This document shows, piece by piece, positions 16,638 to 55,100 of a DNA stretch of 64,000 nucleotides (positions are counted from its first letter, which is position 1; each line of letters begins with the position of its first letter). Made by a program: the position numbers and the translations under genes. Origin of the DNA: Tubulanus polymorphus (Eukaryota > Nemertea > Palaeonemertea > Tubulaniformes > Tubulanidae); contig NW_027437448.1 of assembly GCF_964204645.1 (NCBI RefSeq), forward strand, positions 46,712-110,711, written 5' to 3'. The notes under the pieces are model-generated. The model worked only from the letters and a program-made list of their open reading frames with translations. It had not been told where the DNA came from and searched no databases.

Positions 16638-16656
16638 GACAGTTGAACTCTGAGCC

Positions 16657-29079: not shown

Positions 29080-29112
<33 letters not shown>

Positions 29113-32100
29113 TTAAACCTGTTTGAAGCGCGACCGTGTAAAAACTGACTCGACATTCCTTTCACATCAGTTTCATGTTTAGGTGAATAATCGTCTAAAG
29201 ACAGCATGAATACAGCCGTATCTACGAGTCTTAGAGCTTCTTCATTACCTATAAACACAACATCCAACAGTTATAAATAGTTGATGAAATGATATATAGG
29301 TGTCTCTGACTGTCGTACCGACCGTTATTCACTAATGATTCTCTCAGTTGCGCCCAGGTGTCTCTGTGTTCTGACGTTAAAGCTCCTATTGGATGTTCAC
29401 ATTCACCGATATCATCATTCAATATATACTGTATATTAGCCATTATATCACCAGGGGGCGCTATACGACCTGTATAAAATGTAGAGGAATATAGTTTGAA
29501 TCACCAGGGGGCGCTATACGACCTGTATAAAATGTAGAGGAATATAGTTTAAATCACCAGGGGGCGCTATACGACCTGTATAAAATGTAGAGGAATATAG
29601 TTTAAATCACCAGGGGGCGCTATACGATCTGTATAAAATGTAGAGGAATATAGTTTAAATCACCAGGGGGCGCTATACGACCTGTATAAAATGTAGAGGA
29701 ATATAGTTTGAATCACCAGGGGGCGCTATACGACCTGTATAAAATGTAGAGGAATATAGTTTAAATCACCAGGGGGCGCTATACGACCTGTATAAAATGT
29801 AGAGGAATATAGTTTAAATCACCAGGGGGCGCTATACGACCTGTATAAAATGTAGAGGAATATAGTTTAAATCACCAGGGGGCGCTATACGACCTGTATA
29901 AAATGTAGAGGAATATAGTTTAAATCACCAGGGGGCGCTATACGACCTGTATAAAATGTAGAGGAATATAGTTTAAACCACCAGGGGGCGCTATACGACC
30001 TGTATAAAATGTAGAGGAATATAGTTTGAATCACCAGGGGGCGCTATACGACCTGTATAAAATGTAGAGGAATATAGTTTGAATCACCAGGGGGCGCTAT
30101 ACGACCTGTATAAAATGTAGAGGAATATAGTTTAAATCACCAGGGGGCGCTATACGACCTGTATAAAATGTAGAGGAATATAGTTTAAATCACCAGGGGG
30201 CGCTATACGACCTGTATAAAATGTAGAGGAATATAGTTTAAATCACCAGGGGGCGCTATACGACCTGTATAAAATGTAGAGGAATATAGTTTAAATCACC
30301 AGGGGGCGCTATACGATCTGTATAAAATGTAGAGGAATATAGTTTGAATCACCAGGGGGCGCTATACGACCTGTATAAAATGTAGAGGAATATAGTTTAA
30401 ACCACCAGGGGGCGCTATACGACCTGTAAAAAAAACGCAGGGGGCGCTATAAACCGGTGTAAAACTTTAAAACTTACCATCTTCATTGATCACATCGAAT
30501 ATATAAATATGACCTTTTCGTTGAACAGCAATGTGTCGAGCAGTTTCATCCGTTAACAGTTCATCCTTCACAAGTCTGAAATAATAATAATAATGATGAA
30601 GTCATCAATAAATAGATTCAGATATAAACTGATGAGTATAGAATGTGTGTTTTACCGTGGAATACGAGTTGAATTAAACAATCTCGGAAATTGACTCATA
30701 TCTAACGGGAATGCTTTATACCAATAGGCTCCGTACCAAGAAACAGCTTGAGGTAAATACCTAGAAATACATATAACTACTGACTACCTTATTCCTACCT
30801 CATCTCAAATACAGCTTATTCAATCTTACTTGACAAAATTACGAAAACTTTGTGTGTCACTTTTCTTCGGATTCAGATGGAAAACTTCAGGTTCTAATAA
30901 TCCAGCTCGGTAGGTTTTCATAAATTTCATAGCAGAAACAATCATATTAGTGGCTCTGACAATCTGTAAAAACAATCATATTTCGTGGCCCTGACAATCT
31001 TTAAAAACAATCAAATTTAGTGGCTCTGACAATCTGTAAAAACAATCATATTTAGTGTCTCTGACAAGGCATTGAATTAAAATGAATATATGAATGGTTT
31101 GAAATGGATTGAATACCTGTGTATTGTAGAGTTTCCTCGGATCTGGGTTAAAAACCACAAACGGATTGTGATTGAAAACCAGAGCGGGTCGATATTTCAA
31201 ATACATATCATACCAGGGACCTGAAACAACAATACACAAATACCAGTACATCTTAATACATCGGAGTAATACATTGGAGTAATACATCGGAGTAATACAT
31301 CGGAGTAATACATCGGAGTAATACATCGGAGTAATACATCGGAGCAATACATCGGAGTAATACATCGGAGTAATACATCGGATTAATACATCGGAGTAAT
31401 ACATTGGAGTAATACATCGGAGTAATACATCGGAGTAATACATCGGATTAATACATCGGAGCAATACATCGGAGTAATACATCGGAGTAATACATCGGAT
31501 TAATACATCGGAGTTATACATCGGAGTAATACATCGGAGCAATACATCGGAGTAATACATCGGAGCAATACATCGGAGTAATACATCCTTACTTACCAGA
31601 TATATAACTAGTTTGTTTATTAGATTTATCTAATTGCACTAATTCATTGTGATATTCTGCAAAAACATTAAAATACAATTTGTCAATCAATTATCAAATT
31701 AGTTGATTAAATTCGGACACTCGCTCGTGCGCACGGTACCTTGAAGTGACTGAACAGTTTTATCAACAGAGAAATGTTGTTTATGTTGAGGGATTAAAGG
31801 TTGAACTGATTGCGAGTATCTGCTGCATGTATCATGTAGTTTAGGTATCGGTAATCGAGGTAAACTCCTCTGGAAATGATCGGTAGGAATCGAACTACGA
31901 TGTAATAATTCATCAGCATCAAATTCACTGTCGCAATAAATAGAAAAACATACATTTCAAACAGAGTTGTTTTAAACACATATCTTTTAATGAGTGTTTA
32001 ATTCCACTATATATAGGAATGTATAACATGATGTCATATCTTAAAACCTGTAAAGACGTGTGTCTCTGAAACGCAGTAGCGTCTGCACAGACAGTGTTTA

Positions 32101-32919
32101 TTGTTTCTAATTACCGTTTTGAATCTTTCTTGTTACTGCTATGAAATTTTTTGAAGCATGTTGATAATTTCTGAAAGAGATAGATACAATTTAAAATCAA
32201 CTGGTTGGGGATCGGTGCGGGATGAAAGTAGAGCCCGATGAGGTATTGCCGGCGCTGGGACGAGTTTGTAGCACTTTGGTACCATTTAGACTAATGTCTA
32301 TTTCAACCTGACTTGAGAGCATTCCGGGTGGCCTAGCTCACTCATTTTTGGTAGTACATACCTGATAAAGGTCTTAAAAAGGACAGGCAGTCGACCTAAA
32401 TCATCATTTTTTAATCCATTTGAAACTGTATTGAAGGATATCCAAAAAATCTGCAGTGAGAGGGGTTCCTGAGAGAAAAGAGACTCCATGATTTGAAAGT
32501 TTAACAATATGTTTCCATGCCTACGTATCAAATTTCAGTTGGTAGGCAGATTTTTTGGATATCCTTCAATACAGTTTCAAATGGATTAAAAAACGATGAT
32601 TTAGGTTGACTGCCAGTCCTTTCTAGTCCTAATAAGACTTCTATCAGGTATGTACCACCAAAACGACTGACTGAGCTAGGCCACCCTGTATGCTCTCAAG
32701 TCAAGTTGAAATAGACATTAGTCTGAATACAGCAGGACATTGTGACGTTCCTGACAACAACTTGTCTTGGAGACAGGTAACACTGTATGTATAGCTCCGC
32801 TAGGACTCGGGGGGGGGGGGTGGTCTTACCGGTATATTACACTGAATACTGCTGCTGCAGCTGCTGCTGCTGTTTATTATCGTCCTGTATCTTTTAGATA
32901 AACATCTGGACAGCAACAT
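27670..32919 (-). CDS. CPT2: Carnitine O-palmitoyltransferase 2, mitochondrial
   Basis: It converts acylcarnitine back to acyl-CoA on the matrix side of the inner mitochondrial membrane. Fifteen exons in transcript order: 32830-32919, 32115-32170, 31740-31927, 31597-31656, 31117-31220, 30830-30963, 30656-30760, 30478-30575, 29323-29469, 29119-29248, 28842-29038, 28591-28760, 28291-28522, 27890-28081, 27670-27809. They sum to 2043 nt, 680 aa (vertebrate CPT2 is ~658). The first exon is Ser/Arg/Lys-rich, fitting a mitochondrial presequence. Family motifs: [56 protein letters not shown] with the catalytic His, [28 protein letters not shown] and [15 protein letters not shown]. Exons 1-3 lie inside the ninefold tandem duplication. 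Introns 4 and 8 are satellites. Confidence 0.96.
28119..28162 (-). repeat. (CCTAAT)n hexamer run in CPT2 intron 13
   Basis: Seven or so copies of CCTAAT. It resembles telomere repeats superficially, but the unit differs from TTAGGG. Confidence 0.8.
29430..30450 (-). repeat. 53-bp satellite carrying the CPT2 exon-9 acceptor, 19 copies
   Basis: Period is exactly 53 bp, with cores starting at 29451, 29504, 29557 and so on to 30405, plus one degenerate copy near 30440. On the sense strand each unit reads TTTTATACAG + GTCGTATAGCGCCCCCTGGTGAT. That is the intron end, AG, and the first ~24 bases of exon 9. Only the copy nearest the exon (acceptor at 29470) leads into coding sequence. On the plus strand every copy has CACCAGGGGGCGCTA, a CTCF-type core. 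Copies differ by one or two bases. Confidence 0.97.
31255..31588 (-). repeat. 13-bp satellite filling CPT2 intron 4
   Basis: About 25 copies of ATACATCGGAGTA with few variants. It begins nine bases after the exon-4 donor (GTAAGTAAG) and ends some 35 bases before the acceptor of exon 5. Confidence 0.95.
32289..32723. mobile_element. 435-bp MITE in CPT2 intron 1
   Basis: Long terminal inverted repeats (~170 bp each): GACTAATGTCTATTTCAAC at the left and its complement at the right. It is present only in the first tandem unit; the eight others have the short uninterrupted sequence around TAGTCTGAATACAGG. It therefore inserted after, or was lost before, the amplification. Confidence 0.85.
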
Positions 32920-32935
32920 TTTGAATTTTTAGAGC

Positions 32936-32947
32936 AACCCGGAAGTA
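32936..32947. promoter_or_regulatory. ETS-type motif of the CPT2 promoter (repeated in every unit)
   Basis: ACCCGGAAGTAA (with CCGGAAGT, the GABP/ETS core) just upstream of the CPT2 start codon. The same 12 bases occur between DPAGT1 and SLC35E3 and, inverted, between PSMB5 and SMIM13. U5 and U7 copies read GTAGACC instead of GTAAACC downstream. Confidence 0.6.
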
Positions 32948-33734
32948 AACCGGAACACCGCCACAGCTGTCAGATTTTACTCATTGCTACCGAATAATTA
33001 TAGCAAGGTCAGCTCCACAGCCTTGATAAATGCTTATCGCAAAGACAAAAAGAAGCATAGAAAATATTTTTTATGTAACCGTATTTTGTAAATAATAATA
33101 TGTATGTTACAGTTCAGTTTCTATACACAGTTTTCTGATATATAAGATTGATCTCAATCAATTTAATGTATGCGAAAAATGTATCTGTTATCATTCGATT
33201 TAGTGGCGCTAATTTAGTGTTCTAGTCCTACGCATGGTGGCAGCACTTGACGGTACTATACCAATGTCCCCGACCCGCGGGCCGGGTGCCGTTTTCTGCC
33301 CGGGTCAACTATTGCCCGAAAACCTATCAACTATTAAAGAAAAAAGAAAACAAGCAAAGGAAAATATCTTGTATAGAAAGTTTATTAATAATTTATAGAA
33401 AAGCCTTTTATCCTCAGCACAGAAAGGATTACAAAAATACATTCCATCGATAACATTTTTTTCAACCGTTTTTGTGACAATAAAAGTTCATTCCAATAGG
33501 GGAAAAACTTTTTAAGTATTTCGTTCATTAACAATTAGAAATTTTTTGAATCAAAACTCGATCAGAATTTGTTCTAAACTCAATCAGTGATTGGTACAAA
33601 CAACACTGGTGAAAATTGATGATTATCTGAGACATATTAAATTTGATTAATTAATTTTTACTTTTTGGGCTCCACTTCACCCAGCTGCATCAGTCTTTCC
33701 CTCTTCCTCTTCTCCAGGTCTCTCTCTCTCTATT

Positions 33735-33992
33735 TTATACATCATAAAATAATCGTGATAATTGATATCTTATCATAAATGCAACAATGCTGCAAAATAC
33801 CTAAAAAAATCAATAACAGTTTAAACATTAGTTCAATCTATTGATATTAGCATAAAATCATTAGAAATTAAAACTTACTTGAAAATACACAACACAGCGA
33901 ATAAACGCACTAAAACACGGCCGAATAAACCGAGGACTTCAACGCGGAATTTCACTCAACTAATTCCTAATTTATTCGTTTTAGCATCAAAT
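33735..33992 (-). pseudogene. DPAGT1: Unit 1: DPAGT1 exon 8 copy and internally deleted exon 7
   Basis: Exon 8 copy at 33735-33800 and exon 7 copy at 33879-33992. The latter has lost ~130 of 244 bases in its middle, so it cannot encode the normal segment. It lies downstream of the functional CPT2 promoter on the other side. Confidence 0.9.
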
Positions 33993-34014
33993 CTAAAATA
34001 AATAATAAAAACCT

Positions 34015-36140
34015 TCAACATCAAATTCACTGTCGCAATAAGTAGAAAAACATACATTTCAAACAGAGTAGTTTTAAATACATATCTCTTAACCCTTTCA
34101 GTGCCGACTAATTAATACTCTATAGTGCGGGAGAAAATTTGAAAATTTTGAAGAATTCCACCCTAGTGTGTTGAATAACGGGAATACCACTATAGTGCAT
34201 CTACACCGCGGTGCGGTGTATCGTTAGTTACTAATATTTCACTATGTTTGACAGGTGCTGCCATTTTTCAAGAGAGATATAAATTAAATACTAATTACAT
34301 CAATAGACCGCAGTGTGGTGTACTAGCAAAATCTATCACTGATTTATACACCGCATTGCGGTGCAGACGCACTGAAAGGGAAACGAATGTTTAATTCAAC
34401 TATATATAGGAATGTATAACATGATGTCATATCTTAAAACCTGTAAAGACGTGTGTCTCTGAAACGCAGTAGCGTCTGCACAGACAGTGTTTATTGTTTC
34501 TAATTACCGCTTTGAATCTTTCTTGTTACTGCTATGAAATTTTTTGATGCATGTTGATAATTTCTGAAAGAGATAGATAAAATTTAAAATCAACTGTTTG
34601 GGGAGTGGTGCGGGATGAAAGTAGAGCCAGATGAGGTATTGCCGGCGCTGGGACGAGTTTGTAGCTTGGTACCATAATAGACTAGTCTGAATACAGGACA
34701 TTGTTACGTTCCTGACTGACAACAAATTGTCTTGGAGACAGGTAACCCTGTATGTATAGCTCCGCTAGGACTCGGGGGGGGGGGTGGTCTTACCGGTATA
34801 TTACACTGAATACTGCTGCTGCAGCTGCTGCTGCTGTTTATTATCGTCCTGTATCTTTTAGATAAACATCTGGACAGCAACATTTTGAATTTTTAGAGCA
34901 ACCCGGAAGTAAACCGGAACACCGCCACAGCTGTCAGATTTTACACATTGCTACCGAATAATTAGAGCAAGGTCAGCTCCACAGCCTTGATAAATGCTTA
35001 TCGCAAAGACAAAAAGAGGCATAGAAAATATTTTTTATGTAACCGTATTTTGTAAATAAAAATATGTATGTAACAGTTCAGTTTCTATACACAGTTTTCT
35101 GATATATGAGATTGATCTTAATCAATTTAATGTATCCGAAAAATGTATCTGTTATCATTCGATTTAGTGGCGCTAATTTAGTGTTCTAGTCCTAGGCATG
35201 GTGGCAGCACTTGACGGTACTATACCAATGTCCCCGACCCCGCGTGCCGGGTGCCGTTTCTGCCCGGGTCACCTATTGCCCGAAAACCTATCGACTATTA
35301 AAGTAAAAAGAAAACAAGCAAAGGAAAATATCTTGTATAGAAAGTTTATTAATAATTTATAGAAAAGCCTTTTATCCTCAGCACAGAAAGGATTACAAAA
35401 ATACATTCCATCGATAACATTTTTTTCAACCGTTTTTGTGACAATAAAAGTTCATTCCAATAGGGGAAAAACTTTTTAAGTATTTCGTTCATTAACAATT
35501 AGAAATTTTTTGAATCAAAACTCGATCAGAATTTGTTCTAAACTCAATCAGTGATTAGTACAAACAACACTGGTGAAAATTGATGATTATCTGAGACAAA
35601 TTAAATTTGATTAATTTATTTTTACTTTGTGGGCTCCACTTCGCCCAGCTGCATCAGTCTTTCCTTCTTCCTCTTCTCCAGGTCTCTCTCTCTCTCTTTT
35701 ATACATCATAAAATAATCGTGATAATTGATATCTGATCATAAATGCAACAATGCTGCAAAATACCTAAAAAAAACAATAACAGTTTAAACATTAGTTTAA
35801 TCTATTGATATTAGCATAAAATCATTAGAAATCAAAACTTACTTGAAAAGCAAGAAGAATCACTGTCAGTGATCTCTCATGAGTCGGACCAATAATTGAT
35901 CAAATAAAATTAATCAGCGTAAAATTATTACATTCGACAAATTTTCCGTCGTCGCCGAGATTGTATTTAATATCGATAATACGCAACACAGCGAATAAAC
36001 GCACTAAAACACGGCCGAATAAACTGAGGTCTTCAACGCGGAATTTCACTAAACTCATTCCTAATTTATTCGTTTTAGCATCAAATCTAAAATAAATAAT
36101 ATAAACATTCTATGAATAAATGGAACAGGAGAGAGGGGGA
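34015..36140 (-). pseudogene. Tandem unit 2: CPT2 5' exons and DPAGT1 3' exons
   Basis: CPT2 exon 3 is reduced to its first bases (near 34018-34030). Exon 2 copy 34508-34563, exon 1 copy 34794-34883, DPAGT1 exon 7 copy 35843-36086 with the shared TGA. A piggyBac-like MITE sits at 34093-34380. Confidence 0.9.
34093..34380. mobile_element. piggyBac-like MITE (first of seven copies in the tandem units)
   Basis: Ends CCCTTTCAGTGC / GCACTGAAAGGG, preceded by TTAA at the left. Inside are palindromes such as ACACCGCAGTGCGGTGTA. Copies: 34093-34380, 36440-36726, 39075-39362, 41445-41732, 43796-44083, 46166-46453 and 50575-50850 (right end lost). The TTAA and CCC start suggest the piggyBac superfamily. 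The right TTAA is not intact. Confidence 0.7.
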
Positions 36141-38489
36141 GGATCAATTATCGAATAAGTTGATTAAATACGGACGCACGCACGGTACCTTGAAGCGACT
36201 GCACAGTTTTATCAACAGAGAAATGTTGTTTATGTTGAGGGATTAAAGGTTGAACTGATTGCGAGTATCTGCTGCATGTATCATGTAGTTTAGGTATCGG
36301 TAATCGAGGTAAACTCCTCTGGAAATGATCGGTAGGAATCGAACTACGATGTAATAATTCATCAGCATCAAATTCACTGTCGCAATAAATAGAAAAACAT
36401 ACATTTCAAACAGAGTTGTTTTAAATACATATCTCTTAACCCTTTCAGTGCCGACTAATTAATACTCTATAGTGCGGGAGAAAATTAGAAAATTTTGAAG
36501 AATTCCACCCTAGTGTGTTGAATACAAGAAATACCACTATAGTGCGTCTACATCGGGTGCGGTGTATCGTTAGTTACTAATATTTCACTATGTTTGACAG
36601 GTGCTGCCATTTTTCAAGAGAGATATAAATTAAATACTAATTACATCAATAGACCGCAGTGTGGTGTACTAGCAAAATCTATCACTGATTTATACACCGC
36701 ATTGCGGTGCAGATGCACTGAAAGGGAAACGAGTGTTTAATTCAACTATATATAGGAATGTATAACATGATGTCATATCTTAAAACCTGTAAAGACGTGT
36801 GTCTCTGAAACGCAGTAGCGTCTGCACAGACAGTGTTTATTGTTTCTAATTACCGCTTTGAATCTTTCTTGTTACTGCTATGAAGTTTTTTGATGCATGT
36901 TGATAATTTCTGAAAGAGATAGATACAATTTAAAATCAACTGTTTGGGGAGTGGTGCGGGATGAAAGTAGAGCCAGATGAGGTATTGCCGGCGCTGGGAC
37001 GAGTTTGTAGCTTGGTACCATAATAGACATGATAGACTAGTCTGAATACAGGACATTGTTACGTTCCTGACAACAAATTGTCTTGGAGACAGGTAACCCT
37101 GTATGTATAGCTCCGCTAGGACTCGGGGGGGGGGGGGTGGTCTTACCGGTATATTACACTGAATACTGCTGCTGCAGCTGCTGCTGCTGTTTATTATCGT
37201 CCTGTATCTTTTAGATAAACATCTGGACAGCAACATTTTGAATTTTTAGAGCAACCCGGAAGTAAACCGGAACACCGCCACAGCTGTCAGATTTTACACA
37301 TTGCTACCGAATAATTAGAGCAAGGTCAGCTCCACAGCCTTGATAAATGCTTATCGCAAAGACAAAAAGAGGCATAGAAAATATTTTTTATGTAACCGTA
37401 TTTTGTAAATAAAAATATCTATGTAACAGTTCAGTTTCTATACACAGTTTTCTGATATATGAGATTGATCTTAATCAATTTAATGTATGCGAAAAATGTA
37501 TCCGTTATCATTCGATTTAGTGACGCTAATTTAGTGTTCTAGTCCTACGCATGGTGGCAGCACTTGACGGTACTATACCAATGTCCCCGACCCCGCGTGC
37601 CGTTTTCTGCCCGGGTCACCTATTGCCCGAAAACCTATCAACTATTAAAGAAAAAAGAAAACAAGCAAAGGAAAATATCTTGTATAGAAAGTTTATTAAT
37701 AATTTATAGAAAAGCCTTTTATCCTCAGCACAGAAAGGATTACAAAAATACATTCCATCGATAACATTTTTTTCAACCGTTTTTGTGACAATAAAAGTTC
37801 ATTCCAATAGGGGAAAAACTTTTTAAGTATTTCGTTCATTAACAATTAGAAATTTTTTGAATCAAAACTGGATCAGAATTTGTTCTAAACTCAATCAGTG
37901 ATTAGTACAAACAACATTGGTGAAAATTGATGATTATCTGAGACAAATTAAATTTGATTAATTAATTTTTACTTTGTGGGCTCCACTTCACCCAGCTGCA
38001 TCAGTCTTTCCTTCTTCCTCTTCTCCAGGTCTCTCTCTCTCTCTCTTTTATACGTCATAAAATAATCGTGATAATTGATATCTTATCATAAATGCAACAA
38101 TGCTGCAAAATACCTAAAAAAAACAATAACAGTTTAAACATTAGTTTAATCTATTGATATTAGCATAAAATCATTAGAAATCAAAACTTACTTGAAAAGC
38201 AAGAGGAATCACTGTGAGTGATCTCTCATGAGTCGGACCAATAATTGATCAAATAAAATTAATCAGCGTAAAATTATTACATTCGACAAATTTTCCGTCG
38301 TCGCCGAGATTGTACTTAATATCGATAATACGCAACACAGCGAATAAACGCACTAAAACACGGCCGAATAAACCGAGGTCTTCAACGCGGAATTTTACTA
38401 AACTCATTCCTAATTTATTCGTTTTAGCATCAAATCTAAAATAAATAATAAAAACATTCTTTGAATAAATGGAACAGGAGAAAGGGGGA
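36141..38489 (-). pseudogene. Tandem unit 3
   Basis: CPT2 exon copies 36189-36376 (3), 36854-36909 (2) and 37147-37236 (1) keep their frames and splice sites. DPAGT1 exon 7 copy 38192-38435 has the shared TGA. MITE 36440-36726. Confidence 0.92.
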
Positions 38490-41145
38490 GGATCAATTAT
38501 CAAATAAGTTGATTAAATACGGACGCACGCACGGTACCTTGAAGCGACTGCACAGTTTTATCAACAGAGAAATGTTGTTTATGTTGAGGGATTAAAGGTT
38601 GAACTGATTGAGAGTATCTGCTGCATGTATCGTGTAGTTTAGGTATCGGTAATCGAGGTAAACTCCTCTGGAAATGATCGGTAGGAATCGAACTACGATG
38701 TAATAATTCATCAGCATCAAATTCACTGTCGCAATAAATAGAAAAACATACATTTCAAACAGAGTATTGTTGAGACGAGAAGATACACAATATCCGTGTA
38801 AGAAGATAACAAGAGAAATCCCACAATAAGTTCAGCCAAAACGAGAAACTTGAATAGAAGAGTTATATATATTTTTGCGCAACGTTTCGGCTAAAGACTA
38901 TTAGCCATCATCAGGCGTACTGAGTACGCCTGATGATGGCTAATAGTCTTTAGCCGAAACGTTGCGCAAAAATATATATAACTCTTCTATTCAAGTTTCT
39001 CGTTTTGGCTGAACTTATTGTGGGATTTCTCTTGTTGTTTTCAAACAGAGTAGTTTTAAATACATATCTCTTAACCCTTTCAGTGCCGACTAATTAATAC
39101 TCTATAGTGCGGGAGAAAATTTGAAAATTTTGAAGAATTCCACCCTAGTGTGTTGAATAACGGGAATACCACTATAGTGCGTCTGCACCGCGGCGCGGTG
39201 TATCGTTAGTTACTAATATTTCACTATGTTTGACAGGTGCTGCCATTTTTCAAGAGAGATATAAATAAAATACTAATTACATCAATACACCGCAGTGTGG
39301 TGTACTAGCAAAATCTATCACTGATTTATACACCGCACTGCGGTGTAGACACACTGAAAGGGAAATGAGTGTTTAATTCCACTATATATAGGAATGTATA
39401 ACATGATGTCATATCTTAAAACCTGTAAAGACGTGTGTCTCTGAAACGCAGTAGCGTCTGCACAGACAGTGTTTATTGTTTCTAATTACCGTTTTGAATC
39501 TTTTTTGTTACTGCTATGAAATTTTTTGAAGCATGTTGATAATTTCTGAAAGAGATAGATACAATTTAAAATCAACTGGTTGGGGAGTGGTGCGGGATGA
39601 AAGTAGAGCCAGATGAGGTATTGCCGGCGCTGGGACGAGTTTGTAGCACTTTGGTACCATTTAGTCACTAGTCTGAATACAGGACATTGTTACGTTCCTG
39701 ACAACAACTTGTCTTGGAGACAGGTAACACTGTATGTATAGCTCCGCTAGGACTCGGGGGGGGGGGTCTCGGGGGTGGTCTTACCGGTATATTACACTGA
39801 ATACTGCTGCTGCAGCTGCTGCTGCTGTTTATTATCGTCCTGTATCTTTTAGATAAACATCTGGACAGCAACATTTTGAATTTTTAGGGCAACCCGGAAG
39901 TAAACCGGAACACCGCCACAGCTGTCAGACTTTACTCATTGCTACCGAATAATTAGAGCAAGGTCAGCTCCACAGCCTTGATAAATGCTTATCGCAAAGA
40001 CAAAAAGAGGCATAGAAAATATTTTTTATGTAACCGTATTTTGTAAATAAAAATATCTATGTAACAGTTCATGTAACAATTCAGTTTCTATACACAGTTT
40101 TCTGATATATAAGATTGATCTTACTCAATTTAATGTATCCGAAAAATGTATCTGTTATCATTCGATTTAGTGGCGCTAATTTAGTGTTCTAGTCCTACGC
40201 ATGGTGGCAGCACTTGACGGTACTATACCAATGTCCCCGACCCCGCGGGCCGGGTGCCGTTTTCTGCCCGGGTCACCTAATGCCCGAAAACCTATCAACT
40301 ATTAAAGTAAAAAGAAAACAAGCAAAGGAAAATATCTTGTATAGAAAGTTTATTAATAATTTATAGAAAAGCCTTTTATCCTCAGCACAGAAAGGATTAC
40401 AAAAATACATTCCATCGATAACATTTTTTTCAACCGTTTTTGTGACAATAAAAGTTCATTCCAATAGGGGAAAAACTTTTTAAGTATTTCGTTCATTAAC
40501 AATTAGAAATTTTTTGAATCAAAACTCGATCAGAATTTGTTCTAAACTCAATCAGTGATTAGTACAAACAACACTGGTGAAAATTGATGATTATCTGAGA
40601 CAAATTAAATTTGATTAATTTATTTTTACTTTGTGGGCTCCACTTCGCCCAGCTGCATCAGTCTTTCCTTCTTCCTCTTCTCCAGGTCTCTCTCTCTCTC
40701 TTTTATACATCATAAAATAATCGTGATAATTGATATCTTATCATAAATGCAACAATGCTGCAAAATACCTTAAAAAAAACAATAACAGTTTAAACATTAG
40801 TTAAATCTATTGATATTAGCATAAAATCATTAGAAATCAAAACTTACTTGAAAAGCAAGGCGAATCACTGTCAGTGATCTCTCATGAGTCGGACCAATAA
40901 TTGATCAAATAAAATTAATCAGCGTAAAATTATTACATTCGACAAATTTTCCGTCGTCACCGAGATTGTATTTAATATCGATAATACGCAACACAGCGAA
41001 TAAACGCACTAAAACACGGCCGAATAAACCGAGGACTTCAACGCGGAATTTCACTAAACTCATTCCTAATTTATTCGTTTTAGCATCAAATCTAAAATAA
41101 ATAATAAAAACATTCTTTGAATAAATGGAACAGGAGAGAGGGGGA
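38490..41145 (-). pseudogene. Tandem unit 4, with a palindromic insertion
   Basis: CPT2 exon copies 38538-38725, 39490-39545, 39785-39874; DPAGT1 exon 7 copy 40848-41091 with the shared TGA. MITE 39075-39362. A 286-bp palindromic insertion (38766-39051 including one repeat of the target) makes this the longest unit. Confidence 0.92.
38766..39037. mobile_element. Palindromic insertion with hammerhead-like core and target duplication
   Basis: Arms 38808-38920 and 38924-39036 are perfect or near-perfect reverse complements around a 3-base centre. Fourteen bases of target (TTTCAAACAGAGTA) are repeated on both sides, and the other eight units show the empty site, so this is a real insertion. Each arm includes CTGATGA, a GGCTAA/TTAGCC stem and GAAAC (38930-38960), reminiscent of hammerhead ribozymes of Penelope-like elements. 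One extra U before the stem departs from the consensus. Confidence 0.85.
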
Positions 41146-43496: not shown

Positions 43497-45866
43497 GGAT
43501 CAATTATCAAATAAGTTGATTAAATACGGACGCACGCACGGTACCTTGAAGCGACTGCACAGTTTTATCAACAGAGAAATGTTGTTTATGTTGAGGGATT
43601 AAAGGTTGAACTGATTGAGAGTATCTGCTGCATGTATCGTGTAGTTTAGGTATCGGTAATCGAGGTAAACTCCTCTGGAAATGATCGGTAGGAATCGAAC
43701 TACGATGTAATAATTCATCAGCATCAAATTCACTGTCGCAATAAATAGAAAAACATACATTTCAAACAGAGTAGTTTTAAATACATATCTCTTAACCCTT
43801 TCAGTGCCGACTAATTAATACTCTATAGTGCGGGAGAAAATTTGAAAATTTTGAAGAATTCCACCCTAGTGTGTTGAATAACGGGAATACCACTATAGTG
43901 CGTCTGCACCGCGGCGCGGTGTATCGTTAGTTACTAATATTTCACTATGTTTGACAGGTGCTGCCATTTTTCAAGAGAGATATAAATAAAATACTAATTA
44001 CATCAATACACCGCAGTGTGGTGTACTAGCAAAATCTATCACTGATTTATACACCGCACTGCGGTGTAGACACACTGAAAGGGAAATGAGTGTTTAATTC
44101 CACTATATATAGGAATGTATAACATGATGTCATATCTTAAAACCTGTAAAGACGTGTGTCTCTGAAACGCAGTAGCGTCTGCACAGACAGTGTTTATTGT
44201 TTCTAATTACCGTTTTGAATCTTTTTTGTTACTGCTATGAAATTTTTTGAAGCATGTTGATAATTTCTGAAAGAGATAGATACAATTTAAAATCAACTGG
44301 TTGGGGAGTGGTGCGGGATGAAAGTAGAGCCAGATGAGGTATTGCCGGCGCTGGGACGAGTTTGTAGCACTTTGGTACCATTTAGTCACTAGTCTGAATA
44401 CAGGACATTGTTACGTTCCTGACAACAACTTGTCTTGGAGACAGGTAACACTGTATGTATAGCTCCGCTAGGACTCGGGGGGGGGGGTCTCGGGGGTGGT
44501 CTTACCGGTATATTACACTGAATACTGCTGCTGCAGCTGCTGCTGCTGTTTATTATCGTCCTGTATCTTTTAGATAAACATCTGGACAGCAACATTTTGA
44601 ATTTTTAGGGCAACCCGGAAGTAAACCGGAACACCGCCACAGCTGTCAGACTTTACTCATTGCTACCGAATAATTAGAGCAAGGTCAGCTCCACAGCCTT
44701 GATAAATGCTTATCGCAAAGACAAAAAGAGGCATAGAAAATATTTTTTATGTAACCGTATTTTGTAAATAAAAATATCTATGTAACAGTTCATGTAACAA
44801 TTCAGTTTCTATACACAGTTTTCTGATATATAAGATTGATCTTACTCAATTTAATGTATCCGAAAAATGTATCTGTTATCATTCGATTTAGTGGCGCTAA
44901 TTTAGTGTTCTAGTCCTACGCATGGTGGCAGCACTTGACGGTACTATACCAATGTCCCCGACCCCGCGGGCCGGGTGCCGTTTTCTGCCCGGGTCACCTA
45001 TTGCCCGAAAACCTATCAACTATTAAAGTAAAAAGAAAACAAGCAAAGGAAAATATCTTGTATAGAAAGTTTATTAATAATTTATAGAAAAGCCTTTTAT
45101 CCTCAGCACAGAAAGGATTACAAAAATACATTCCATCGATAACATTTTTTTCAACCGTTTTTGTGACAATAAAAGTTCATTCCAATAGGGGAAAAACTTT
45201 TTAAGTATTTCGTTCATTAACAATTAGAAATTTTTTGAATCAAAACTCGATCAGAATTTGTTCTAAACTCAATCAGTGATTAGTACAAACAACACTGGTG
45301 AAAATTGATGATTATCTGAGACAAATTAAATTTGATTAATTTATTTTTACTTTGTGGGCTCCACTTCGCCCAGCTGCATCAGTCTTTCCTTCTTCCTCTT
45401 CTCCAGGTCTCTCTCTCTCTCTTTTATACATCATAAAATAATCGTGATAATTGATATCTTATCATAAATGCAACAATGCTGCAAAATACCTTAAAAAAAA
45501 CAATAACAGTTTAAACATTAGTTAAATCTATTGATATTAGCATAAAATCATTAGAAATCAAAACTTACTTGAAAAGCAAGGCGAATCACTGTCAGTGATC
45601 TCTCATGAGTCGGACCAATAATTGATCAAATAAAATTAATCAGCGTAAAATTATTACATTCGACAAATTTTCCGTCGTCACCGAGATTGTATTTAATATC
45701 GATAATACGCAACACAGCGAATAAACGCACTAAAACACGGCCGAATAAACCGAGGACTTCAACGCGGAATTTCACTAAACTCATTCCTAATTTATTCGTT
45801 TTAGCATCAAATCTAAAATAAATAATAAAAACATTCTTTGAATAAATGGAACAGGAGAAAGGGGGA
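43497..45866 (-). pseudogene. Tandem unit 6, near-twin of unit 4
   Basis: CPT2 exon copies 43545-43732, 44211-44266, 44506-44595; DPAGT1 exon 7 copy 45569-45812 with the shared TGA. MITE 43796-44083. It matches unit 4 (including a private CATGTAACAATTCAG duplication near 44790) except that it lacks the palindrome. Confidence 0.92.
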
Positions 45867-48229
45867 GGATCAATTATCAAATAAGTTGATTAAATACGGA
45901 CGCACGCACGGTACCTTGAAGCGACTGCACAGTTTTATCAACAGAGAAATGTTGTTTATGTTGAGGGATTAAAGGTTGAACTGATTGCGAGTATCTGCTG
46001 CATGTATCGTGTAGTTTAGGTATCGGTAATCGTGGTAAACTCCTCTGGAAATGATCGGTAGGAATCGAACTACGATGTAATAATTCATCAGCATCAAATT
46101 CACTGTCGCAATGAATAGAAAAACATACATTTCAAACAGAGTAGTTTTAAATACATATCTCTTAACCCTTTCAGTGCCGACCAATTAATACTCTATAGTG
46201 CGGGAGAAAATTTGAAAATTTTGAAGAATTCCACCCTAGTGTGTTGAATAACGGGAATACCACTATAGTGCGTCTGCACCGCGGCGCGGTGTATCGTTAG
46301 TTACTAATATTTCACTATGTTTGACAGGTGCTGCCATTTTTCAAGAGAGATATAAATAAAATACTAATTACATCAATAGACCGCAGTGTAGTGTACTAGC
46401 AAAATCTATCACTGATTTATACACCGCACTGCGGTGTAGACACACTGAAAGGGAAATGAGTGTTTAATTCCACTATATATAGGAATGTATAACATGATGT
46501 CATATCTTAAAACCTGTAAAGACGTGTGTCTCTGAAACGCAGTAGCGTCTGCACAGACAGTGTTTATTGTTTCTAATTACCGTTTTGAATCTTTTTTGTT
46601 ACTGCTATGAAATTTTTTGAAGCATGTTGATAATTTCTGGAAGAGATAGATACAATTTAAAATCAACTGGTTGGGGAGTGGTGCGGGATGAAAGTAGAGC
46701 CAGATGAGGTATTGCCGGCGCTGGGACGAGTTTGTAGCACTTTGGTACCATTTAGTCACTAGTCTGAATACAGGACATTGTTACGTTCCTGACAACAACT
46801 TGTCTTGGAGACAGGTAACACTGTATGTATAGCTCCGCTAGGACTCGGGGGGGGGGGTCTCAGGGGTGGTCTTACCGGTATATTACACTGAATACTGCTG
46901 CTGCAGCTGCTGCTGCTGTTTATTATCGTCCTGTATCTTTTAGATAAACATCTGGACAGCAACATTTTGAATTTTTAGGGCAACCCGGAAGTAGACCGGA
47001 ACACCGCCACAGCTGTCAGACTTTACTCATTGCTACCGAATAATTAGAGCAAGGTCAGCTCCACAGCCTTGATAAATGCTTATCGCAAAGACAAAAAGAG
47101 GCATAGAAAATATTTTTTATGTAACCGTATTTTGTAAATAGAAATATCTATGTAACAATTCAGTTTCTATACACAGTTTTCTGATATATAAGATTGATCT
47201 TACTCAATTTAATGTATCCGAAAAATGTATCTGTTATCATTCGATTTAGTGGCGCTAATTTAGTGTTCTAGTCCTAGGCATGGTGGCAGCACTTGACGGT
47301 ACTATACCAATGTCCCCGACCCCGCGGGCCGGGTGCCGTTTTCTGCCCGGGTCACCTATTGCCCGAAAACCTATCAACTATTAAAGAAAAAAGAAAACAA
47401 GCAAAGGAAAATATCTTGTATAGAAAGTTTATTAATAATTTATAGAAAAGCCTTTTATCCTCAGCACAGAAAGGATTACAAAAATACATTCCATCGATAA
47501 CATTTTTTTCAACCGTTTTTGTGACAATAAAAGTTCATTCCAATAGGGGAAAAACTTTTTAAGTATTTCGTTCATTAACAATTAGAAATTTTTTGAATCA
47601 AAACTGGATCAGAATTTGTTCTAAACTCAATCAGTGATTAGTACAAACAACACTGGTGAAAATTGATGATTATCTGAGACAAATTAAATTTGATTAATTA
47701 ATTTTTACTTTGTGGGCTCCACTTCGCCCAGCTGCATCAGTCTTTCCTTCTTCCTCTTCTCCAGGTCTCTCTCTCTCTCTTTTATACATCATAAAATAAT
47801 CGTGATAATTGATATCTGATCATAAATGCAACAATGCTGCAAAATACCTAAAAAAAACAATAACAGTTTAAACATTAGTTTAATCTATTGATATTAGCAT
47901 AAAATCATTAGAAATCAAAACTTACTTGAAAAGCAAGGCGAATCACTGTCAGTGATCTCTCATTGAGTTGGACCAATAATTGATCAAATAAAATTAATCA
48001 GCGTAAAATTATTACATTCGACAAATTTTCCGTCGTCGCCGAGATTGTATTAAATATCGATAATACGCAACACAGCGAATAAACGCACTAAAACACGGCC
48101 GAATAAACCGAGGACTTCAACGCGGAATTTCACTAAACTCATTCCTAATTTATTCATTTTAGCATCAAATCTAAAATAAATAATAAAAACATTCTATGAA
48201 TAAATGGAACGGAGAAAGGGGGAGGGGGA
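45867..48229 (-). pseudogene. Tandem unit 7
   Basis: CPT2 exon copies 45915-46102, 46581-46636, 46876-46965. DPAGT1 exon 7 copy 47936-48180 has a one-base insertion (CATTGAGTTGG) in addition to the shared TGA. MITE 46166-46453. Confidence 0.92.
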
Positions 48230-50276
48230 GGATCAATTATCAAATAAGTTGATTAAATACGGACGCACGCACGGTACCTTGAAGCGACTGCACAGTTTTA
48301 TCAACAGAGAAATGTTGTTTATGTTGAGGGATTAAAGGTTGAACTGATTGCGAGTATCTGCTGCATGTATCGTGTAGTTTAGGTATCGGTAATCGAGGTA
48401 AACTCCTCTGGAAATGATCGGTAGGAATCGAACTACGATGTAATAATTCATCAGCATCAAATTCACTGTCGCAATAAATAGAAAAACATACATTTCAAAC
48501 AGAGTTGTTTTAAACACATATCTTTTAATGAATGTTTAATTCCACTATATATAGGAATGTATAACATGATGTCATTATCTTAAAACCTGTAAAGACGTGT
48601 GTCTCTGAAACGCAGTAGCGTCTGCACAGACAGTGTTTATTGTTTCTAATTACCGTTTTGAATCTTTCTTGTTACTGCTATGAAATTTTTTGATGCATGT
48701 TGATAATTTCTGAAAGAGATAGATACAATTTAAAATCAACTGTTTGGGGAGTGGTGCGGGATGAAAGTAGAGCCAGAGGAGGTATTGCCGGCGCTGGGAC
48801 GAGTTTGTAGCTTGGTACCATAATAGACTAGTCTGAATATAGGACATTGTTACGTTCCTGACAACAACTAGTCTTGGAGACAGGTAACACTGTATGTATA
48901 GCTCCGCTAGGACTCGGGGGGGGTGGTCTTACCGGTATATTACACTGAATACTGCTGCTGCAGCTGCTGCTGCTGTTTATTATCGTCCTGTATCTTTTAG
49001 ATAAACATCTGGACAGCAACATTTTGAATTTTTAGAGCAACCCGGAAGTAAACCGGAACACCGCCACAGCTGTCAGATTTTACACATTGCTACCGAATAA
49101 TTAGAGCAAGGTCAGCTCCACAGCCTTGATAAATGCTTATCGCAAAGACAAAAAGAGGCATAGAAAATATTTTTTATGTAACCGTATTTTGTAAATAAAA
49201 ATATGTATGTAACAGTTCAGTTTCTATACACAGTTTTCTGATATATGAGATTGATCTTAATCAATTTAATGTATGCGAAAAATGTATCTGTTATCATTCG
49301 ATTTAGTGACGCTAATTTAGTGTTCTAGTCCTACGCATGGTGGCAGCACTTGACGGTACTATACCAATGTCCCCGACCCCGCGTGCCGGGTGCCGTTTTC
49401 TGCCCGGGTCACCTATTGCCCGAAAACCTATCGACTATTAAAGAAAAAAGAAAACAAGCAAAGGAAAATATCTTGTATAGAAAGTTTATTAATAATTTAT
49501 AGAAAAGCCTTTTATCCTCAGCACAGAAAGGATTACAAAAATACATTCCATCGATAACATTTTTTTCAACCGTTTTTGTGACAATAGTTCATTCCAATAG
49601 GGGAAAAACTTTTTAAGTATTTCGTTCATTAACAATTAGAATTTTTTTGAATCAAAACTGATCAGAATTTGTTCTAAACTCAATCAGTGATTGGTACAAA
49701 CAACACTGGTGAAAATTGATGATTATCTGAGACAAATTAAATTTGATTAATTAATTTTTACTTTGTGGGCTCCACTTCGCCCAGCTGCATCAGTCTTTCC
49801 TTCTTCCTCTTCTCCAGGTCTCTCTCTCTCTCTTTTACACATCATAAAATAATCGTGATAATTGATATCTGATCATAAATGCAACAATGCTGCAAAATAT
49901 CTAAAAAAACAATAACAGTTTAAACATTAGTTTAATCTATTGATATTAGCATAAAATCATTAGAAATCAAAACTTACTTGAAAAGCAAGAAGAATCACTG
50001 TCAGTGATCTCTCATGAGTCGGACCAATAATTGATCAAATAAAATTAATCAGCGTAAAATTATTACATTCGACAAATTTTCCGTCGTCGCCGAGATTGTA
50101 TTTAATATCGATAATACGCAACACAGCGAATAAACGCACTAAAACACGGCCGAATAAACCGAGGACTTCAACGCGGAATTTCACTAAACTCATTCCTAAT
50201 TTATTCGTTTTAGCATCAAATCTAAAATAAATAATAAAAACATTCTATGAATAAATGGAACAGGAGAAAGGGGGAA
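48230..50276 (-). pseudogene. Tandem unit 8, lacks the MITE
   Basis: CPT2 exon copies 48278-48465, 48654-48709, 48933-49022; DPAGT1 exon 7 copy 49978-50221 with the shared TGA. The piggyBac-like MITE is absent and the site reads TCTTTTAATGAATG, like unit 1, so this unit preserves the ancestral empty site. Confidence 0.92.
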
Positions 50277-52141
50277 GACCAATTATCGAATAAGTTGATT
50301 AAATACGGACGCACGCACGGTACCTTGAAGCGACTGAACAGTTTTATCAACAGAGAAATGTTGTTTATGTTGAGAGATTAAAGGTTGAACTGCTTGCGAG
50401 TATCTGCTGCATGTATCATGTAGTTTAGGTATCGGTAATCGAGGTAAACTCCTCTGGAAATGATCGGTAGGAATCGAACTACGATGTAATAATTCATCAG
50501 CATCAAATTCACTGTCGCAATAAATAGAAAAACATACATTTCAAACAGAGTTGTTTTAAATACATATCTCTTAACCCTTTCAGTGCCGACTAATTAATAC
50601 TCTATAGTGCGGGAGAAAATTTGAAAATTTTGAAGAATTCCACCCTAGTGTGTTGAATAACGGGAATACCCCTATAGTGCATCTACACCGCGGTGCGGTG
50701 TATCATTAGTTACTAATATTTCACTATGTTTGACAGGTGCTGCCATTTTTCAAGAGAGATATAAATTAAATACTAATTACATCAATAGACCGCAGTGCGG
50801 TGTACTAGCAAAATCTATCACTGATTTATACACCGCACTGCGGTGCAGACTGTATAACATGATGTCATATCTTAAAACCTGTAAAGACGTGTGTCTCTGA
50901 AACGCAGTAGCGTCTGCACAGACAGTGTTTATTGTTTCTAATTACCGTTTTGAATCTTTCTTGTTACTGCTATGAAATTTTTTGATGCATGTTGATAATT
51001 TCTGAAAGAGATAGATAAAATTTAAAATCAACTGGTTGGGGATCGGTGCGGGATGAAAGTAGAGCCCGATGAGGTATTGCCGGCGCTGGGACGAGTTTGT
51101 AGCACTTTGGTACCATTTGATTTAGTCACTAGTCTGAATACAGGACATTGTTACGTTCCTGACAACAACTAGCCTTGGAGACAGGTAACACTGTATGTAT
51201 AGCTCCGCTAGGACTCGGGGGGGGGTGGTCTTACCGGTATATTACACTGAATACTGCTGCTGCAGCTGCTGCTGCTGTTTATTATCGTCCTGTATCTTTT
51301 AGTTAAACATCTGGACAGCAACATTTTGAATTTTTAGAGCAACCCGGAAGTAAACCGGAACACCGCCACAGCTGTCAGATTTTACTCATTGCTACCGAAT
51401 AATTAGAGCAAGGTCAGCTCCACAGCCTTGATAAATGCTTATCGCAAAGACAAAAAGAGGCATAGAATTTATTTTTTATGTAACCGTATTTTGTAAATAA
51501 AAATATCTATGTAACAGTTCAGTTTCTATACACAGTTTTCTGATATATGAGATTGATCTCAATCAATTTAATGTATGCGAAAAATGTATCTGTTATCATT
51601 CGATTTAGTGACGCTAATTTAGTGTTCTAGTCCTACGCATGGTGGCAGCACTTGACGGTACTATACCAATGTCCCCGACCCCGCGTGCCGGGTGCCGTTT
51701 TCTGCCCGGGTCACCTATTGCCCGAAAACCTATCAACTATTAAAGAAAAAAGAAAACAAGCAAAGGAAAATATCTTGTATAGAAAGTTTATTAATAATTT
51801 ATAGAAAAGCCTTTTATCCTCAGCACAGAAAGGATTACAAAAATACATTCCATCGATAACATTTTTTTCAACCGTTTTTGTGACAATAAAAGTTCATTCC
51901 AATAGGGGAAAAACTTTTTAAGTATTTCGTTCATTAACAATTAGAAATTTTTTGAATCAAAACTCGATCAGAATTTGTTCTAAACTCAATCAGTGATTAG
52001 TACAAACAACACTGGTGAAAATTGATGATTATCTGAGACAAATTAAATTTGATTAATTAATTTTTACTTTGTGGGCTCCACTTCGCCCAGCTGCATCAGT
52101 CTTTCCTTCTTATCTTCTCCAGGTCTCTCTCTCTCTCTCTT
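50277..52141 (-). pseudogene. CPT2: Tandem unit 9: CPT2 exon copies next to functional DPAGT1
   Basis: CPT2 exon copies 50324-50511 (3), 50946-51001 (2) and 51235-51324 (1) lie directly downstream of the functional DPAGT1 gene, whose exons 7 and 8 form the rest of the unit. A truncated MITE sits at 50575-50850. Confidence 0.9.
51787..51792 (-). terminator. Poly(A) signal of DPAGT1 (repeated in every unit)
   Basis: AATAAA on the minus strand 350 nt after the DPAGT1 stop codon, within TTATTAATAAACTTTC. The same signal is present in the other tandem units, giving nine potential terminators ahead of or between CPT2 promoters. Confidence 0.6.
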
Positions 52142-55100
52142 TTATACGTCATAAAATAATCGTGATAATTGATATCTTATCATAAATGCAACAATGCTGC
52201 AAAATACCTAAAAAAAACAATAACAGTTTAAACATTAGTTTAATCTATTGATATTAGCATAAAATCATTAGAAATCAAAACTTACTTGAAAAGCAAGAAG
52301 AATCACTGTGAGTGATCTCTCATGAGTCGGACCAATAATTGATAAAATAAAATTAATCAGCGTAAAATTATTACATTCGACAAATTTTCCGTCGTCGCCG
52401 AGATTGTACTTAATATCGATAATACGCAACACAGCGAATAAACGCACTAAAACACGGCCGAATAAACCGAGGTCTTCAACGCGGAATTTTACTAAACTCA
52501 TTCCTAATTTATTCGTTTTAGCATCAAATCTAAAATAAATAATAAAAACATTCTATGAATAAATGGAACAGGAGTGAGGGAGAGGGGGAGGGGAGGAGGA
52601 TGGGGAGGAGGGGCGAACTGAGAGATGAAAATCTTACTTTGGTAAACGATGTCTCGGACACGGCACGAAGTGAAACAGCTGAGGAACCGAATAAATAAAA
52701 TTCAAAACTTGCGGAATAAAAAACAGTAACATTGTTTTACTGAAGTGACTGAGAATCGCGACGACTGCGAACGTCATTCCGGAAAAATAACAGAATGTGT
52801 CTCCGACAAATACAGCAGACGGATACCTGGAAATATATACAATCAATCAAATCAATCAATCAATCAGACAGTCAGCTAACCAATCAACTAACCAGTCAGC
52901 CAGCAAGTCAGCCAGCTTACCACAGCCAGCCAATCAATCGACAAACCAGTCAGCTAACTAACCAACCGACTAATCAGACAGCCAACCAATCAGCCAAGTA
53001 ACCAGTCAGCTAACTAACCAGTCAGCTAACTAACCAACCGACTTATCAGTCAGCCAAATAGTCAGCATACAAACAAACCAACTGATCAGCCAGCCAACCA
53101 GTCAACTAACCAACCAACTAATCAGCCAGCCAACCAGTCGGCTAACCAACTAATCAGCCTGCCAACCAGTCAGTCAGTTAATCAATTATTCACTGATAAA
53201 TTACTGCCATATTTTTACTTACCAGTTGTAATACATTAATGCTAATGTAACGGCCAGATAAGGCATCATGAATATCAGTGAAAATACGTGATCATTATTA
53301 AAATCACCTGAAATATAGAATTTATTCATTTTAGCATTAATTAGCATGAATTATAAACGGTTATAATCGAATGTTGATGATTCATACCTCGTAATTCGAT
53401 CAGATTGAATATAATAACTGATATAGAAATGATGACACTTTGACCGCATTCTAATCCATTTATACCGGCTAATATATTAATAGCATTAGTACAGAATACA
53501 GCCAGCATTCCCATATACACATAATACAATAAACCTACAAATATAATACATATATCAATCAGCTGACACACGTAATACTCATTGTATCAATCAGCTGACA
53601 CACGTAATACTCATTGTATCAATCAGCTGACCCCAGTAATACTCATTGTATCAATCAGCTGACACGCGTAATACTCATTGTATCAATCAGCTGACCCCAG
53701 TAATACTCATTGTATCAATCAGCTGACCCCAGTAATACTCATTGTATCAATCAGCTGACCCCAGTAATACTCATTGTATCAATCAGCTGACACACGTAAT
53801 ACTCATTGTATCAATCAGCTGACCCCAGTAATACTCATTGTATCAATCAGCTGACCCCAGTAATACTCATTGTATCAATCAGCTGACCCAGTAATACTCA
53901 TTGTATCAATCAGCTGACCCCAGTAATACTCATTGTATCAATCAGCTGACCCCAGTAATACTCATTGTATCAATCAGCTGACCCCAGTAATACTCATTGT
54001 ATCAATCAGCTGACACACGTAATACTCATTGTATCAATCAGCTGACCCCAGTAATACTCATTGTATCAATCAGCTGACCCCAGTAATACTCATTGTATCA
54101 ATCAGCTGACCCCAGTAATACTCATTGTATCAATCAGCTGACCCCAGTAATACTCATTGTATCAATCAGCTGACACACGTAATACTCATTGTATCAATCA
54201 GCTGACACATGTAATACTCATTGTATCAATCAGCTGACACACGTAATACTCATTGTATCAATCAGCTGACACACGTAATACTCATTGTATCAATCAGCTG
54301 ACACATGTAATACTCATTGTATCCACGGATACTTACTGAGATTTAAATCGTATCCTAGCAACGCGCGTAGCGGTTTAGGTACAATAATTGTAGTGGATCC
54401 AAAATTCACGAAATAAACCATTAACAACGGAAGAGACGCCATCGTAGGCAGCAGCAACTTGTGGCGCCATCTTAAATCTAAAACATCGTCTGCGAACCCG
54501 AGGAATATCATACAACAGATCGACAGCAGAGCAGAAATAAACTCGACCAACTGAAATATATACATACAATTAACAACAGGAGCGGGTACTCGATTCAGGT
54601 GTTAGGAGTGGGTACTCGATTCAGGTGTTAGGAGTGGGTACTCGATTCAGGTGTTAGGAGCGGGTACTCGATTCAGGTGTTAGGAGCGGGTACTCGATTC
54701 AGGTGTTAGGAGTGGGTACTCGATTCAGGTGTTAGGAGTGGGTACTCGATTCAGGTGTTAGGAGCGGGTACTCGATTCAGGTGTTAGCAGCGGGTACTCG
54801 ATTCAGGTGTTAGGAGCGGGTACTCGATTCAGGTGTTAGGAGCAGGTACTCGATTCAGGTGTTAGGAGCAGGTACTCGATTCAGGTGTTAGGAGCAGGTA
54901 CTCGATTCAGGTGTTAGGAGCAGGTACTCGATTCAGGTGTTAGGAGCAGGTACTCGATTCAGGTGTTAGGAGCAGGTACTCGATTCAGGTGTTAGCAGCA
55001 GGTACTCGATTCAGGTGTTAGCAGCAGGTACTCAATTCAGGTGTTAGCAGCAGGTACTCGATTCAGGTGTTAGGAGCAGGTACTCGATTCAGGTGTTAGG

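Follow-up and report, generated by a model that had tools for sequence, protein, structure and literature searches.

A tandem array of the DPAGT1/CPT2 gene boundary in the nemertean Tubulanus polymorphus

Layout of the locus

In the nemertean Tubulanus polymorphus, the boundary between two adjacent genes, DPAGT1 (N-glycosylation) and CPT2 (fatty-acid oxidation), has been amplified into a tandem array of nine units. The array lies in a window of 64,000 nucleotides, the whole stretch of DNA analysed here, which corresponds to positions 46,712 to 110,711 of contig NW_027437448.1 (C31:46712-110711) in assembly GCF_964204645.1. This is the one assembly examined, and it comprises 267,791,593 bases in 77 contigs. 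Both genes are encoded on the minus strand, with DPAGT1 running down from ~55,667 and CPT2 ending near 27,682.

When the exons of CPT2 were joined and translated, the product matched the solved CPT2 structure 2deb (E 2.7e-223; chain residues 21-649 of 653), and the joined DPAGT1 translation matched the solved DPAGT1 structure 6fm9 (E 3.2e-156; chain residues 12-388 of 409). The DPAGT1 tail encoded by exons e8 and e9 aligns as far as the C-terminal end of the 6fm9 chain; the DPAGT1 numbers (e8, e9, intron 7) are our own, chosen for convenience. On the CPT2 side, exons E3 and E4 align to the mature N-terminus, and the match begins at query residue 53, within E3. With the query that starts at E1, neither E1 nor E2 aligned to any solved structure. 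The calls for these two exons are based on an ATG, an open frame, splice signals and a presequence-like composition, and E1 begins MLLSRCL. The remaining exons of both genes were joined by eye, with splice sites checked in part.

Self-BLAST and self-alignment of the window, which is free of N, reveal nine units arranged head to tail on the minus strand from ~52,600 to 31,640 (Table 1). They measure 2,054-2,656 bp and are ~93-99% identical in pairwise comparisons by block. A sequence-only reading of the same stretch had proposed a ninefold tandem amplification of a ~2.0-2.65 kb unit and had named self-alignment as a check, and that check bears the proposal out. Nine copies with identity on the kilobase scale rule out chance, and the observation is confirmed. 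Read in the gene direction, each unit holds the tail of DPAGT1 intron 7, e8, e9 (...RLFYDV-stop) and a 3′ untranslated region (UTR) with an AATAAA, after which a few hundred bp of upstream sequence lead into CPT2 E1, E2, E3 and the start of intron 3. We placed the unit boundaries at the junctions. Probes for e9, E1 and E2 found matches in all nine units, while the full e8 probe matched in eight (in U9 the match covers just the first 119 of its 256 bases), as did the full E3 probe (U8 matches 27 of 209 bases). What has been multiplied is a gene junction and not a gene, as the sequence-only reading had held.

Two further claims of that reading also agree with our results. Sequence material for both complete genes is present at the outer edges, where U1 completes DPAGT1 and U9 completes CPT2, and the probes count eight extra copies both of the CPT2 E1/upstream region and of the e9/poly(A)-signal region. 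The survival of the edge genes needs no special explanation, because any tandem duplication that ends inside two neighbouring genes automatically leaves one whole copy of each.

Some units carry inserted elements. The ~0.29-kb insertion in CPT2 intron 2 that is listed in Table 1, which we take to be piggyBac-like from its appearance, occurs in U1 (with one end lost) and in U3-U8, and is absent from U2 and U9. A second intron 2 insertion is confined to U6 (~38,767-39,038) and is missing from the near-twin U4; it forms an almost perfect inverted repeat, at 98% over 241 bases, and accounts for most of the 286-bp net insertion of U6. U9 alone has a fold-back element of ~0.4 kb in intron 1 (~32,293-32,712).

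The CPT2 and DPAGT1 introns that flank the array on both sides contain minisatellites with units of 13, 32 and 26 bp (31254-31587, 53553-54323 and 54578-55271, respectively) in ~24-27 copies. A 53-bp tandem repeat in the CPT2 intron downstream of the array (29443-30433) includes CACCAGGGGGCGCTA without mismatch 19 times, a sequence presumed here to resemble the CTCF consensus core. This sequence has 21 matches in the window, of which the two outside the repeat have 1 mismatch, versus none in 100 shuffles. Looser CTCF-like matches are present at 17062, 17155, 20463 and 23432.

Table 1. Coordinates of the DPAGT1/CPT2 array and its flanking exons in the 64,000-nucleotide window
Feature	Position	Strand	Remarks
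DPAGT1 exons upstream of array	52628..55667	-	six-frame exons; 6fm9 match; own-genome matches C31:99339-102378
DPAGT1 first matched exon	~55,461-55,667	-	
DPAGT1 last pre-array exon	~52,628-52,846	-	
U1	50290..52600	-	completes DPAGT1; sole unit with open e8
U1 exons	e8 52286-52529; e9 52142-52207; E1 51235-51324; E2 50946-51001; E3 50324-50511	-	E1-E3 are CPT2 exons
Example junction, CPT2 intron 3/DPAGT1 intron 7	50222..50323	-	102 nt, E3 donor to e8 acceptor
U2	48236..50289	-	e8 with common TGA; without intron 2 insertion
U3	45876..48235	-	e8 with two stops and 1-nt frameshift
U4	43506..45875	-	near-twin of U6
U5	41155..43505	-	recombinant: U7-like to alignment column ~1115, U3-like from ~1229
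U6	38499..41154	-	286-bp net insertion in CPT2 intron 2
U7	36150..38498	-	
U8	34012..36149	-	CPT2 E3 lost save first bases
~0.29-kb insertion in CPT2 intron 2 (in U8)	34093..34380	-	ends CCCTTTCAGTGC / GCACTGAAAGGG adjoining TTAA
U9	31640..34011	-	completes CPT2; truncated e8; ~0.4-kb fold-back insertion in intron 1
U9 exons	E1 32830-32919; E2 32115-32170; E3 31740-31927	-	
CPT2 exons 4 to end, downstream of array	27682..31657	-	E4 start ~31,657; own-genome matches C31:74393-77941

Growth of the array and the question of assembly

At all seven intact junctions, CPT2 intron 3 has been fused to DPAGT1 intron 7 at one and the same point: '...AATTGAT' of the former meets 'ATCCTCC...' of the latter with a 2-base overlap, 'AT'. 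The U1/U2 junction has acquired base changes and the U2/U3 junction differs by 5 nt in length. The spacing from E3 donor to e8 acceptor is 102-107 nt over the seven; the U8/U9 join is a deletion that spans a junction. This single breakpoint argues that one duplication founded the array. The event would have been a tandem duplication of ~2.3 kb with its ends in CPT2 intron 3 and DPAGT1 intron 7, joined through ~2 bp of common sequence by a repair route that we infer, and its first product would have been one extra unit made of the end of DPAGT1 and the start of CPT2.

Later exchange among the units has also left traces. U5 differs from U7 by 2 substitutions up to alignment column ~1115, with many differing sites beyond, and from U3 by 1 substitution from column ~1229, with many differing sites before (gap columns uncounted); the switch of partner falls within ~115 alignment columns in the intergenic region. 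U4 and U6 are 99.96% identical over e8-E3 and show 2 substitutions across the whole unit besides the U6 insertion, and the block from mid-U3 to mid-U5 recurs as mid-U5 to mid-U7. The array therefore holds both recombinant units and blocks duplicated in register, as is characteristic of unequal crossing-over or conversion. Long and nearly identical units would be prone to misalign, and growth to nine would have proceeded by unequal crossing-over, perhaps with conversion, a route supported by the recombinant U5 and by the U4/U6 pair. One late step would have been an unequal crossover in a two-unit register that duplicated a two-unit block. Given the low divergence among units, the array is probably young. 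We do not claim that every internal unit is a recombinant of U9 on the left and U1 on the right; most sites diagnostic for U1 or U9 are private, and the informative sites split uncleanly.

The similarity of U4 and U6 bears on the count as well. Because they differ by 2 substitutions and the 286-bp net insertion, an exact number of nine is less secure, and 'at least seven distinct units' is the safer statement. This similarity, together with the recurring two-unit block, is also what might be expected if an assembler had wholly or partly expanded the array by joining alleles or repeated reads end to end. Moreover, the array is located on a contig of 110,711 bp in an assembly with contigs of up to 32 Mb (C1), and the end of the window (64000) is the exact end of that contig, ~11.4 kb past the array. 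Against this explanation, other unit pairs differ by ~1-3% in substitutions and have distinct indels and stops, and one or two alleles therefore cannot supply the units. The recurring block may owe something to assembly or to alleles, but the remaining differences cannot.

Searches of the assembly point the same way. For a 961-base piece of the unit, the matches are nine places within the array and a 139-base fragment at 80% on contig C10. Matches to CPT2 fall on C31 in 34 of 36 cases, the other two being 45-48% identical pieces on C12, and all 24 DPAGT1 matches are on C31; the 267.8-Mb assembly yielded no further locus for either gene. For a 1.7-kb flank, the sole full-length match is on C31, and the 40 other listed matches span ~57-110 bases (40 of 90 candidates scored). 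Because the gene matches and the full-length flank match sit on C31, this contig does not have the appearance of an alternative haplotype of a locus already placed elsewhere. Kilobase tandem arrays were seen in none of six arbitrarily placed 10-kb chromosome stretches (L009-L014) and not in the one C31 flank sampled (L017), and a different kilobase array was present in both stretches chosen for a match resembling the 3′ UTR (L015, L016), samples that are too few to give a rate. On balance, we consider it unlikely that assembly has wholly or partly expanded the array.

The array on C10 is an observation in its own right. It occupies L015 1-10000 and L016 1-5790 (C10:20001-35790) in units of ~5 and 4.1 kb that are 99% identical, and it carries a reverse-transcriptase-like frame, presumably Penelope-like, that ends in a GIY-YIG-like part. 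Beyond it lies a stretch of 141 columns (L016 7412-7550) with 79-81% identity to a portion of the DPAGT1 3′ UTR of each of the nine units.

State of the copies and predicted transcripts

If the array grew in this manner, only the first unit would have to retain DPAGT1 e8-e9 and only the last would have to retain CPT2 E1-E3. With constraint limited to these two halves, everything between them would be dispensable. The fate of e8 conforms to this expectation: it is open in U1 and broken in all eight extra units. One Leu-to-TGA change is common to U2-U8 (seven of the seven units that keep the site), U3 has in addition a TAG and a 1-nt frameshift, and the truncated e8 of U9 has its own separate stop. 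The CPT2 exons of U1, which CPT2 itself can do without, show three private changes, all of them amino-acid-altering, and zero private silent ones. Exons e9, E1 and E2 are each open in all nine units, and E3 is open in eight and mostly deleted in U8.

Several observations weigh against a dispensable interior. CPT2 E1-E3 are open in seven of the eight extra units. An ETS-like core, as we take ACTTCCGG to be, lies just upstream of the ATG in all nine units, so the extra CPT2 promoters may well be live. Variable coding sites in the CPT2 pieces (eight units, with U8 left out) comprise 5 replacement and 7 silent changes (one-sided p = 0.0097), against a neutral replacement expectation of 0.77 that takes the noncoding transition bias into account; neutral copies alone would give no such silent excess. 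Finally, E1 is the least variable segment of the unit, with 1 of 90 columns variable (0.011), which is unexplained if E1 is free to change, although it may be due to chance. The corresponding densities of variable columns are 0.061 in both e8 and e9, 0.038 in intron 8, 0.029 in the 3′ UTR, 0.065 in the 200 bases before the ATG, 0.117 in intron 1, 0.071 in E2, 0.058 in intron 2 and 0.053 in E3.

The DPAGT1 pieces provide the necessary comparison. Over nine units, their variable coding sites comprise 11 replacement changes, three of which are stops, and 9 silent changes (one-sided p = 0.044; neutral replacement expectation 0.75), and the ratios of the two genes do not differ (Fisher p = 0.72, all sites). 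A split restricted to the internal units, chosen after the site list was seen and omitting changes private to U1 or U9, gives 2:6 for CPT2 (p = 0.003, one-sided) and 8:9 for DPAGT1 (p = 0.013), again with no difference between genes (Fisher p = 0.40). Because the genes are indistinguishable in this respect, we do not claim selection on the extra CPT2 exons; the dead DPAGT1 exons are likewise rich in silent changes. For that reason, the silent excess most likely reflects changes that date from functional genes or alleles.

What the units might express can be predicted from their layout. DPAGT1 would end at the poly(A) site of U1, and CPT2 would start at the promoter of U9. Should an internal CPT2 promoter fire, E3 would be spliced to the e8 acceptor and the transcript would run as far as the following DPAGT1 poly(A) site, whose AATAAA occupies the same position after e9 in all nine units. 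Because that acceptor is 102-107 nt past E3 and an AATAAA is present in every unit, internal initiation, if any, is expected to yield short chimeric RNAs rather than extra CPT2. The splice from E3 to e8 shifts the frame and brings a stop 5-8 codons past E3 in all seven intact internal units, and the predicted product is CPT2 residues 1-111 followed by DLMLKRIN (119 aa, six of seven) or DLMLK (116 aa, one of seven). This stop is upstream of the e8-e9 splice. Since a stop that precedes a later splice is expected to trigger nonsense-mediated decay, the CPT2-DPAGT1 chimera is likely to be a target of that pathway. A splice that skips E3 is in frame with e8 and would encode 110 aa (six of seven) or 88 aa (one of seven).

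These predictions bear on two ways in which the interior could be useful. The array might serve as a CPT2 promoter array, in which transcription starts at any of the nine promoters, E3 is spliced past the DPAGT1 pieces to the single E4, and CPT2 expression is raised or diversified as a result. The open E1-E3 in eight of nine units and the ETS-like core in every unit are in keeping with such a role. However, all seven intact internal E3 copies have an e8 acceptor just beyond them, every unit holds a DPAGT1 poly(A) signal, E4 is up to ~18.7 kb away, and the 200 bases before the ATG, with 13 variable columns, vary no less than most of the unit. We regard this arrangement as decidedly improbable. 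Alternatively, the internal chimeras could be selected new genes, comparable to Sdic of Drosophila, that encode either the ~119-aa presequence-bearing peptide or the in-frame 110-aa form made by skipping E3. The in-frame forms and the post hoc 2:6 split for the internal CPT2 exons would fit this proposal, but the dead DPAGT1 exons are similarly skewed, the tail after E3 amounts to just 5-8 frame-shifted residues, and E3 is gone from U8. New genes of this type strike us as very improbable here.

It is most doubtful of all that the array is a selected regulatory device, in which each of eight extra live CPT2 promoters is coupled to a DPAGT1 terminator to make chimeric RNAs, and the nearby CTCF-like repeats, such as the 19-copy array, govern the choice of promoter. 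If it were, decay-prone or peptide-coding chimeric RNAs would tune CPT2 output or bring a peptide with the CPT2 presequence to mitochondria. We believe instead that a single founding duplication, growth by unequal crossing-over and a dispensable interior with a mostly neutral outcome probably explain the locus, and the net effect of the array, judged from its sequence, is most likely near neutral. The sequence-only reading had recognised the amplified boundary and the extra copies, and this part stands, but it had missed the death of e8, the frame-mismatched chimeras, the single breakpoint and the two-unit crossover.

The locus offers a clean record of how a boundary duplication makes many chimeric transcription units with both parent genes left whole. 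Since constraint applies to one half of each edge unit and to nothing else, one can ask directly here whether spare promoters and chimeras fall into decay, are active without harm or get recruited. The array is also a good place to test how unequal crossing-over changes copy number in a housekeeping region.

Other features of the window lie apart from these genes. Nested tandem repeats of ~74-78, 154 and 299 bp occupy 24279-26326, and a 25-bp unit in ~36 copies (98% match) at 59175-60081 separates two frames that match the Pfam proteasome family. Open frames at 12298-14071, one of which matches Pfam AIRS_C and which we assume to resemble selenophosphate synthetase, have a pyrimidine-rich minisatellite between them and are followed by a pair of C2H2 zinc-finger frames (16654-22001). 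Scans for bacterial promoters and terminators, tRNAs and Rfam families yielded nothing useful, and a search of the assembly for COX1 gave no match.

Comparison with known systems

Arrays of alternative first exons are one obvious point of reference. UGT1A and protocadherin arrays have diverse variable 5′ exons that share one 3′ part, with no terminator between them. Here, unlike in those systems, the 5′ exons are nearly identical, and a DPAGT1 terminal exon with its AATAAA is present in every unit.

A closer parallel is provided by the Sdic cluster of Drosophila melanogaster (Cdic/sw - Sdic repeats - AnnX), which is described as an incomplete duplication over two adjacent genes that takes in the second half of one and the first part of the next (PMC3395120, PMC3449122). 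In both cases, the unit runs from the 3′ part of one gene into the 5′ part of the gene that follows it, the copies are in tandem with the parental genes whole at both outer edges, an inserted element is carried within the repeats, and copy number is difficult to fix. For Sdic, four copies are present in the assembly and up to 10 are suggested by Southern blots, a matter that has been hard to settle (PMC3395120, PMC3449122). In the same accounts, Sdic is a chimeric gene that is expressed, with a new promoter and, following internal deletions, a refashioned N-terminus. The units of T. polymorphus differ in both respects. Their fusion does not seem to bring a new promoter, since in every unit E1 is preceded by copied sequence that corresponds to what precedes the CPT2-completing E1 of U9, and the expected E3-e8 splice makes no fused frame and no new chimeric reading frame. 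Because the new coding frame and the new promoter are both lacking, we do not call the array an Sdic-like gene.

In Drosophila yakuba, tandem duplications with breakpoints inside neighbouring genes join a 5′ part to a 3′ part; 76 chimeras are described, 24 of them with raised expression, and chimeras often alter expression, unlike whole-gene duplicates (PMC5460883). Those duplications are population variants, and many-copy amplification is not mentioned in the sections consulted (PMC5460883). The human RCCX module (STK19-C4-CYP21-TNX) resembles our array in another way. There, truncated STK19B and TNXA lie between intact outer STK19 and TNXB, and copy number varies via unequal crossover, with gene conversion (PMC8362596). 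Boundary genes truncated by the ends of the module and an array shaped by unequal crossing-over are thus shared by the two loci, but RCCX modules hold whole genes (C4, CYP21) and are commonly one to three in number, whereas the unit in T. polymorphus holds no whole gene.

A limited literature search found no paper that treats DPAGT1, CPT2 and tandem duplication together. The origin of the array is of a type already known, namely boundary-spanning tandem duplication, and it does not represent a new class of system. What is unusual is the number of units, a unit without a whole gene, and the contrast between its DPAGT1 and CPT2 halves.

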